From Roseitalea porphyridii (GTDB lineage: Bacteria > Pseudomonadota > Alphaproteobacteria > Rhizobiales > Rhizobiaceae), in the NCBI RefSeq assembly GCF_004331955.1, contig NZ_CP036532.1:3038001-3102000 (forward strand): a stretch of DNA of 64,000 nt. The letters run 5' to 3'. This document shows positions 17,153 through 18,742 of this stretch, one piece after another; the stretch's first letter is position 1, and each line of letters opens with the position of its first letter. The position numbers were made by a program, and so were the translations under genes. The notes beneath the pieces were generated by a model, which saw only the letters and a program-made list of their open reading frames with translations, was not told where the DNA came from and made no database searches.

Positions 17153-17860
17153 ATGCTCGACCCGAAGAAGCTGCTCAACGATTTTCTGGGATCGCAGATC
17201 CCCGGCGCCGGCGGAACCGTGCGCGAACGGGCCGGGCAGGCCGGGCAGATGGCCAAGGACAATCCGCTGGCGACGGGCGCCATCGCCGCGGTGCTGCTGG
17301 GCACCGGCGTCGGCCGCGAACTGACGGGGTCCGCCCTCAAGCTGGGCGCCGCCGCGGCGGTGGGCGGGCTCGCCTACACCGCCTGGAAGAACTACAAGGA
17401 AGGCCGCCAGGTCGAGCAGGCCGGCGCGCCCGGCCAGCAGGGCCAGCCCGAAGTGCTGCCGCCGCCGCAGGGGTCGGAATTCGACATCGAGGGCGACGGC
17501 CAGGACGGCGAGTTCGCGCTGGCGCTGGTGCGCGCGATGATCGCGGCCGCCCGCGCGGATGGCCATATCGACGAGGACGAGCGCGCCCGCATCACCGACA
17601 AGCTGGCGATGAGCGGCATCGACGAGGACGAGCAGAGCTTCATCCGCGCCGAACTGGCAAAGCCGGTCGATATGGACGCGATCGTCGGCGCGGCGAAGAC
17701 CGAGGCGCAGCGCGTCGAACTCTACACGGCCTCGCGGCTCGCCATCGAGCCGAAGACGCGCGCCGAGCGCGGCTATCTGGACATGCTCGCCGGCCGGCTG
17801 CAGCTCCCCGATCCGCTGGTCGATCACATCGAGGCGACCATCGCCGGCGCGACCGTCTAG
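17153..17860 (+). CDS. DUF533 (TerB-like) inner-membrane-associated protein
   Basis: The 235-residue product matches the DUF533/YebE family. It has a short N-terminal segment (MLDPKKLLNDFLGS), a Gly/Ala-rich hydrophobic region (about residues 45-80, including AAAAVGGLAYTAWKNY), a Pro/Gln linker and a C-terminal TerB-like helical bundle beginning at FALALVRAMIAAARADGHID (about 123). TerB-like domains carry acidic metal-binding loops, here HIDEDERARI. The function is unknown; YebE-type genes are often envelope-stress responsive. The ATG at 17153 has an ideal AGGAGG. A longer upstream in-frame start is rejected because it lacks one. Confidence 0.8.
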   Translation: MLDPKKLLNDFLGSQIPGAGGTVRERAGQAGQMAKDNPLATGAIAAVLLGTGVGRELTGSALKLGAAAAVGGLAYTAWKNYKEGRQVEQAGAPGQQGQPEVLPPPQGSEFDIEGDGQDGEFALALVRAMIAAARADGHIDEDERARITDKLAMSGIDEDEQSFIRAELAKPVDMDAIVGAAKTEAQRVELYTASRLAIEPKTRAERGYLDMLAGRLQLPDPLVDHIEATIAGATV

Positions 17861-17954
17861 AGCCGCGACCGCGGGCCCGTCGCGCACCGTCCGCCGCGTG
17901 ATCATCGTCACGGCGGCCAAGCGCGATGCGTGCAATGATGCCCTCGCACACGCG

Positions 17955-17969
17955 TTAACCCTCCGTTAA
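17955..17969 (+). promoter_or_regulatory. Perfect CtrA box (TTAA-N7-TTAA)
   Basis: The sequence TTAA-CCCTCCG-TTAA exactly matches the consensus for the alphaproteobacterial cell-cycle regulator CtrA. It lies about 25-35 bases upstream of the predicted start of a small terminator-ended transcript, the distance expected for CtrA activation of a sigma-70 promoter. It is also about 773 bases from the TetR gene start, so control of that gene is unlikely. Confidence 0.65.
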
Positions 17970-17992
17970 GGGTTCGGCGCGAAAATGGGACA

Positions 17993-18077
17993 TGGGCAAA
18001 AGCGGGCCGGGGCTCTCCTCCCACCCTGGTCACGCGGAAACGGGCGATCGATCCGAAAGGTTGATCGCCCGCTTTTT
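17993..18077 (+). ncRNA. Predicted trans-acting sRNA with anti-Shine-Dalgarno loop
   Basis: A compact transcription unit lies in the 258-base gap: the CtrA box, a GAAAAT -10-like element (17981-17986), and about 85 bases ending in a strong terminator. The first hairpin, CCGGGG/CCCTGG (18007-18012 with 18024-18029, one G-U pair), shows an 11-base loop containing CUCCUCCC, complementary to Shine-Dalgarno sequences. Such loops are known from several alphaproteobacterial sRNAs (cuckoo-type and some alpha-r families). The short open frames across it lack ribosome sites and run through the terminator. The exact 5' end and family are inferred. Confidence 0.6.
18041..18077 (+). terminator. Rho-independent terminator of the predicted sRNA
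   Basis: A nine-base-pair stem CGGGCGATC/GATCGCCCG (18041-18049 with 18063-18071) encloses an inner partially paired GATCC-GAAA-GGTT segment and is followed by C and five T residues (18073-18077). No protein gene ends upstream of it within 170 bases. Confidence 0.85.
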
Positions 18078-18118
18078 GTGCGGGCGAGGCCGGCGCGCCA
18101 TCCGCCCGTCACCCGGGC

Positions 18119-18742
18119 TCACAGCCGCACTGCCCGCCGCACCATCTCCTCGACCACCGGACGCTGCGCTTCGAAAGGCTGATCGGTCAGCCAGCCCATC
18201 TTGTTGCCGATCGCCAGATGGGCATAGCCGTGCACCATGGCCCAGGCGGCGGTGACATCGCGCCAGCCCGCCTCGCCCTTGAGCGCATCGGCGCCGCGCA
18301 GCCTGGCGACCGCGTTCACCAGCACCGAAAAGCTCGCATCGCCCGCCCTTGCCAGTTCGGCCGGCACCGGACCCTGCACGCGCCCGCCGAACATGAGCTG
18401 GAACAGGGCCCGGTTCTCCACCGCAAAGCGCACATAGCCGACGCCGGCGGCGGTCAGCATCGCCTCGGCATCGCCTGGAGCGACGCGGGCCTGTTCGTTC
18501 TTCATGCAGTCGGTGAGCCGGTCGAAACCGCGCTGTGCCAGCCCCCGCAGCAGCGCCGTCACGTCACGGAAGTGATGGGCAGGCGCGGCATGGGAGACGC
18601 CGGCGCGCTTGGCCGTCGAACGCAGCGAAAAGCCGTCCTCGCCCTTTTCGGTCAGTTCGGCCTCGGCCGCCGCGAGCAGCGCCTCGCGCAATTCGCCGTG
18701 ATGGTAGCGCCGCGAACCGGCGCGCGTCTTCAAATCGGTCAT
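18119..18742 (-). CDS. TetR/AcrR-family transcriptional regulator
   Basis: This 207-residue repressor-type protein has an N-terminal TetR helix-turn-helix (RYHHGELREALLAAAEAEL to SLRSTAKRAGVSHAAPAHHF, residues 12-62). Its C-terminal ligand domain has the AWAMVHGYAHLAIGNKMG pattern (WxxvHG) of the TetR_C_33-like group. It is divergent from the ABA4-like gene, with 107 bases between the starts. An inverted repeat in that gap is its probable operator, giving autorepression and control of the membrane-protein pair. The effector is unknown. Confidence 0.88.
   Translation of the reverse strand: MTDLKTRAGSRRYHHGELREALLAAAEAELTEKGEDGFSLRSTAKRAGVSHAAPAHHFRDVTALLRGLAQRGFDRLTDCMKNEQARVAPGDAEAMLTAAGVGYVRFAVENRALFQLMFGGRVQGPVPAELARAGDASFSVLVNAVARLRGADALKGEAGWRDVTAAWAMVHGYAHLAIGNKMGWLTDQPFEAQRPVVEEMVRRAVRL

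Follow-up and report, generated by a model that had tools for sequence, protein, structure and literature searches.

Among small RNAs that expose an anti-Shine-Dalgarno (anti-SD) loop, AbcR1 silences the transporter mRNA livK (PMC3712013), and NfeR1 of the ar14 family, which has transport mRNAs among its predicted and tested targets, silences two transporter mRNAs and ntrB via its anti-SD motifs and has LsrB and NtrC as regulators (PMC10746234). In Caulobacter, full CtrA motifs with their 5' base near -35 accompany activation, the activating motif of ctrA P2 lies at -39 and the repressing motif of ctrA P3 at -14, and the cell-cycle promoters with both a CtrA motif and a ChIP signal include those of six ncRNAs (PMC4287350).

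The element described here occupies positions 17955-18077 of the window, the whole 64,000-nucleotide stretch of Roseitalea porphyridii DNA that was analysed, in a genome consisting of a single contig of 3.54 Mb. It is intergenic, lying between a DUF533 gene on the plus strand and a convergent TetR-type gene on the minus strand, and its parts and neighbours are as follows.

17153-17860, plus strand: DUF533 protein gene, the 5' neighbour of the element, with conserved synteny
17955-17969, plus strand: full CtrA box TTAA-N7-TTAA (TTAACCCTCCGTTAA), a perfect match
17981-17986, plus strand: putative -10 element GAAAAT, 11 nt 3' of the box, with conserved A2 and T6
17993-18077, plus strand: predicted sRNA of ~85 nt from a putative start; covariance model match at 17989-18077, 60.6 bits
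18005-18031, plus strand: 5' hairpin with the anti-SD loop, from the fold; two-sided changes in 8/8 pairs of the helix
18016-18022, plus strand: anti-SD heptamer UCCUCCC in the loop, invariant in 20/20 aligned rows
18041-18077, plus strand: intrinsic terminator, with its stem at 18041-18071 followed by TTTTT at 18073-18077
18119-18742, minus strand: TetR-type regulator gene, the convergent neighbour, with a TetR_C_33 match

Judged by comparison of sequences, this is a real, conserved sRNA gene outside Rfam, with a CtrA-type promoter and a predicted working principle like that of AbcR. The explanation that we regard as probable is a stand-alone gene for an sRNA of ~85 nt that would be activated by CtrA and would use its anti-SD loop to silence mainly the mRNAs of solute-binding proteins. 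We infer transcription from a start site near 17993 (assuming ~7 nt past the -10), activated and timed by CtrA, and repression by the RNA of this class of targets. CtrA~P would occupy the full box, whose centre lies near -31, bringing RNA polymerase to the adjoining -10; the ~85-nt RNA would end at its own terminator; and the UCCUCCC of the 5' hairpin loop would pair with GGGAGGA Shine-Dalgarno sequences and, in the manner of AbcR1/2 and NfeR1, block ribosome entry, mainly on mRNAs for periplasmic solute-binding proteins. A sequence-only reading had proposed a CtrA-driven, cell-cycle-phased sRNA repressing several mRNAs through an exposed anti-SD loop, and it holds in part: the sRNA gene, the CtrA-type promoter and the exposed loop have strong support from comparison, phasing of the sRNA in the cell cycle would follow from the position of the box and the presence of a CtrA orthologue, and translational repression of several mRNAs is predicted from the UCCUCCC loop and the gene starts that carry TGGGAGGA.

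The element is present in all four other genomes of the genus that were searched, at 75-79% identity. Eighty named loci around relatives of the DUF533 gene yielded 20 with a box, an anti-SD motif and a T-rich terminator downstream in the same order, the box being perfect in 17 and imperfect in three (L041, L045, L085). The training alignment comprised the RNA part only, box excluded, of 19 of these 20 loci (L078 repeats L074) and of the window, the remaining 60 loci, with no such element within the 900 nt inspected, being left out. RNAalifold folds this alignment into two hairpins. The covariance model R1, trained on the RNA part alone, found a match at E<=0.05 in 222 of 247 genomes of the GTDB family, many of the matches being weak. 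The box was checked at 109 R1 matches, namely every match of at least 36 bits outside the own genus plus 24 of 30 listed matches that score 30-36 bits or slightly less, and at the second-best match of the own genome. A perfect box accompanies 45/51 matches of at least 60 bits, 12/16 at 50-60 bits, 12/14 at 40-50 bits, 3/27 at 30-40 bits and 0/2 below 30 bits, and with up to one mismatch allowed the counts in the same bins become 51/51, 16/16, 13/14, 7/27 and 0/2; control windows 100-1400 nt upstream contain a perfect box in 0/2645 cases. Among matches of at least 40 bits the box with no more than one mismatch is thus found in 80 of 81, the exception (L201) being an ar14 RNA by Rfam. With 16 matches nearly identical to training rows set aside, 64 remain in 19 sequence clusters, and all 64 have a box with at most one mismatch just upstream (perfect in 55).

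Defined by at least 40 bits and a box with at most one mismatch, the family has one strong copy in each of 84 of the 247 genomes sampled from the GTDB family, since the 80 fetched genomes are all different and are joined by four of the own genus; the carriers span 39 of 109 genera. The own genome holds a single copy at 60.6 bits, a score to which the window sequence contributed as a training row of the model, and its next match scores 22 bits. When 347 genomes of the order were searched, every match of at least 60 bits fell within the family, and none of 19 weak-match loci examined outside it has a box with at most one mismatch. Two loci from another family of the order (L235 and L236; 40-44 bits) have a single anti-SD hairpin and a terminator without the CtrA box, a similar RNA design under another promoter. 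Plasmid collections gave no match to the window element or to its relative L121, nor did phage collections to L121. In a nucleotide search of the window element against 199 genomes of the family, all long matches among those listed lay within the genus and the listed matches from elsewhere were short, the best with an E of 5e-4 over 29 nt.

The promoter is conserved together with the RNA. The perfect TTAA-N7-TTAA box reported by the sequence-only reading is the only one in the 64-kb window (shuffle mean 0.01), and there are 24 in the 3.54-Mb genome, versus six for a reversed-pattern control. Alignment of 56 distinct promoters (perfect box, matches of at least 50 bits) gives the consensus CG-TTAA-N6-G-TTAA-CC-N6-GCGCATcATt, in which box+27 (A) and box+31 (T), the second and sixth bases of the -10 hexamer, are each kept in 54/56, while conservation on the other flank of the box is limited to the two bases adjoining it. 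Both bases are kept together in 61 of the 64 matches that are not near-identical to training rows. The GAAAAT proposed earlier as a -10-like element is supported because it aligns with this hexamer of nearly invariant second A and sixth T in relatives; its difference from the family consensus, CATCAT, counts against the favoured explanation. A -10 placed 17 nt past the box (ATACAT in genus mates) was rejected, as those positions are not conserved, whereas box+26 to +31 are. The distance from box to loop, 61 nt in the window versus 52-58 nt in 69 fetched perfect-box members outside the genus, likewise counts against it. Comparison among relatives shows the gene, with a conserved structure and a CtrA box coupled to its -10.

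Both structural claims of the sequence-only reading, a hairpin carrying CUCCUCCC in its loop and a strong terminator, were borne out. Folding of a 97-nt stretch gives -43.8 kcal/mol (z = -2.93), with 0/200 shuffles as stable; CUCCUCCC lies at 18015-18022 within the loop of the 5' hairpin, and the loop CUCUCCUCCCA is unpaired with a probability of 0.92-1.0. The terminator combines the stem and T-run listed above, and shuffles of a 401-base region contain a mean of 0.1 terminator-like sites. Read on the minus strand, the same stem (18041-18077) is followed by only three T and may, by eye, weakly serve the TetR-type gene. UCCUCCC recurs in 78 of 80 fetched family members. In an alignment of 89 members (86 distinct) to the model, 93.5% of cells pair and 13 of 16 pairs over both hairpins show two-sided changes, with 141 double-change cells versus 27.3 in shuffles, a signal abolished by sliding the partners; this alignment is fitted to the model and leans towards structure. 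The MAFFT training alignment, which is not so fitted, has 40 double-change cells versus 15.5 in shuffles and is weaker on further pair types (21 versus 20.3; 238/500 shuffles as high). Mechanical ORFs cross the element, and RNA length in relatives is not kept in multiples of three, all three classes modulo 3 occurring among 83 loci (32/29/22), which speaks for an RNA and not a protein.

Candidate targets were sought through TGGGAGGA, which is complementary to the loop and occurs 3-11 nt 5' of an ATG at 13 places in the own genome. With three places dropped for having short frames only (L294, L299, L310), 10 genes remain, of which seven encode solute-binding proteins and the others a branched-chain amino acid ABC ATPase, an AMP-binding enzyme and a PhyH enzyme. 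The comparison strong site AAGGAGGA occurs at 14 places, which after removal of L326 and L331 (short frames) and L332 (inside a longer gene, by eye) leave 11, two of them solute-binding proteins (L337 of the 11 being counted without a Pfam scan). The enrichment of TGGGAGGA over AAGGAGGA has a one-sided Fisher p of 0.024, on 10 and 11 genes accepted as gene-like by eye. In the four genus mates, 24 of 116 places were examined (the first six per genome), giving 19 frames of at least 100 aa and, by Pfam, seven solute-binding genes at the 24 sites; 13 further places, chosen for a recurring leader, were translated and left out of this count. One such leader, CTGGGAGGATCACCGATG, precedes the SBP_bac_1 solute-binding gene at L284:1515-2870 (own genome, C1 near 765547) and recurs in four of the five genus genomes, in one of which the protein is cut at a contig end, which suggests this gene as a good first candidate target. 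RNAduplex scores of the whole sRNA against leaders were set aside, as they ignore folding. Complementarity and gene classes are suggestive only that the RNA would target transporter mRNAs, and the two ar14 sRNAs of the genome could use the same sites.

An sRNA from the same CtrA promoter might instead work mainly by another mechanism, sponging up or competing with AbcR/ar14-type sRNAs or Hfq, or acting on targets that are not transporter mRNAs. The loop motif is common to ar14 and AbcR RNAs, two ar14 copies are present in the genome, and the enrichment of transporter leaders is modest and weaker in the genus mates; the conserved single-stranded part is, however, the anti-SD heptamer, explicable without a partner sRNA, and we consider this alternative unlikely.

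The relation to known RNA families was examined with the Rfam models, among the 4227 of which AbcR/ar15 is presumably counted. The whole window gave no match at gathering scores, and the element region (17850-18130) gave nothing relevant at E<=5, including ar14, the cuckoo-type family to which the sequence-only reading had pointed. Near-matches of the element to IMPDH and PyrR206 lie far below their cut-offs and were discarded. Five family loci (L121, L124, L137, L161, L197) had no match at E<=0.1, whereas the same search recognised ar14 at L201 and L207 (82.5 and 97.5 bits). Outside the window the own genome has two ar14 sRNAs above the Rfam cut-off, at C1:1758126-1758248 and C1:1042942-1043068, both on the minus strand. 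These results bear on the idea that the element is a diverged ar14/cuckoo member that lost two hairpins, for which the common loop motif and the intermediate look of L209, L215 and L216 speak. That Rfam assigns L201 and L207 to ar14 and neither the element nor the five loci above, and that both kinds of RNA coexist in one genome, makes such descent improbable. The three intermediate-looking loci (in genomes G207, G052 and G144) have a CtrA-like box with one mismatch 22 nt upstream, an anti-SD hairpin and, in the loop of the terminator, a further CCUCC-type motif.

The promoter geometry bears on the sign of the regulation. Relative to the putative start, the 5' base of the box lies at about -38 and its centre near -31. 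A full box that begins close to -35 and keeps a constant interval to the -10 is the layout expected of a CtrA-activated promoter, and the genome encodes a CtrA orthologue (85% identity over residues 1-203 of 204). CtrA represses as well as activates in Caulobacter, and the promoter might be repressed by it; the position of the box resembles that of activating motifs (about -35, and -39) and not the -14 of ctrA P3 (PMC4287350), making repression very improbable.

Finally, the neighbouring DUF533 protein has its nearest named relatives in Oceaniradius, Roseitalea and a Phyllobacteriaceae MAG (84-91% identity). That the element is merely the 3' end of the DUF533 mRNA, a hairpin and terminator with the TTAA box as operator or chance occurrence, is scarcely credible: 47 of 83 loci (up to 1.5 kb of flank per locus) have a DUF533 match 5' of the RNA and in the same orientation, yet anything between 29 and 961 nt separates the two whereas box, -10 and RNA hold register, and 36 of 83 loci have no DUF533 match in such a flank (only 320 nt upstream in one locus). 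The variable distance indicates that the RNA is a unit without a fixed-distance tie to DUF533.

Beyond the favoured explanation of a CtrA-activated, stand-alone sRNA there is the tentative possibility that the CtrA circuit has a conserved RNA branch in much of the family: in each cell cycle CtrA~P would switch on the single-copy sRNA, and fewer solute-binding proteins would be made during one stage or by one of the daughter cells. If true, the cell cycle would use RNA to gate nutrient uptake. NfeR1, an anti-SD sRNA with the same type of action, answers to the nutrient-linked LsrB and NtrC (PMC10746234); a widespread anti-SD sRNA under a conserved CtrA promoter would link nutrient uptake to the cell cycle in a testable way, and would allow CtrA activity to be reported in genera other than the customary models.

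The literature searched, with most subscription journals and supplements outside its scope, held no earlier description, and the sRNA gene is apparently not yet filed in any family. Two Mesorhizobium huakuii RNAs, MH_s36 (73 nt, with a Northern signal) and MH_s12 (85 nt), are compatible in size and flank orientation with the relative L127 (PMC5596092), and the position relative to 6S RNA, compared in a single genome from the genus of L127, gave no support for identity. EcpR1 of Sinorhizobium meliloti is likewise a rhizobial sRNA with two hairpins and has a link to the cell cycle, but it has a GC-rich loop (UCCGCCGCAUCU), targets dnaA and gcrA and belongs to the stringent-response regulon (PMC4414408). 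The CtrA-linked ncRNAs of Caulobacter have the CtrA promoter motif in common with the element (PMC4287350). The stress-induced CcsR1 (RF02791) has a conserved CCUCCUCCC motif in common, according to its Rfam description, and its model gives no match to the element and stays below cut-off at the two ar14 loci that it touches. The ar14/cuckoo RNAs (NfeR1, RF02344) are alike in an anti-SD loop of the CCUCCUCCC type and differ in having three hairpins with this motif in each and six copies in S. meliloti (PMC7143759); the element lacks the three-hairpin arrangement and an ar14 match in Rfam. AbcR1 and AbcR2 carry UCCUCCC in the 5' hairpin loop as the element does (PMC3712013), but have three hairpins, 114-120 nt and two tandem genes in S. 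meliloti (PMC7143759). Unlike AbcR, the element is a single anti-SD hairpin plus terminator of ~85 nt, counted from the putative start; it has a CtrA box and matches no Rfam model. Hairpin number, the Rfam test and the promoter thus point to a new RNA that is not a member of AbcR or ar14 and whose working principle is like theirs.
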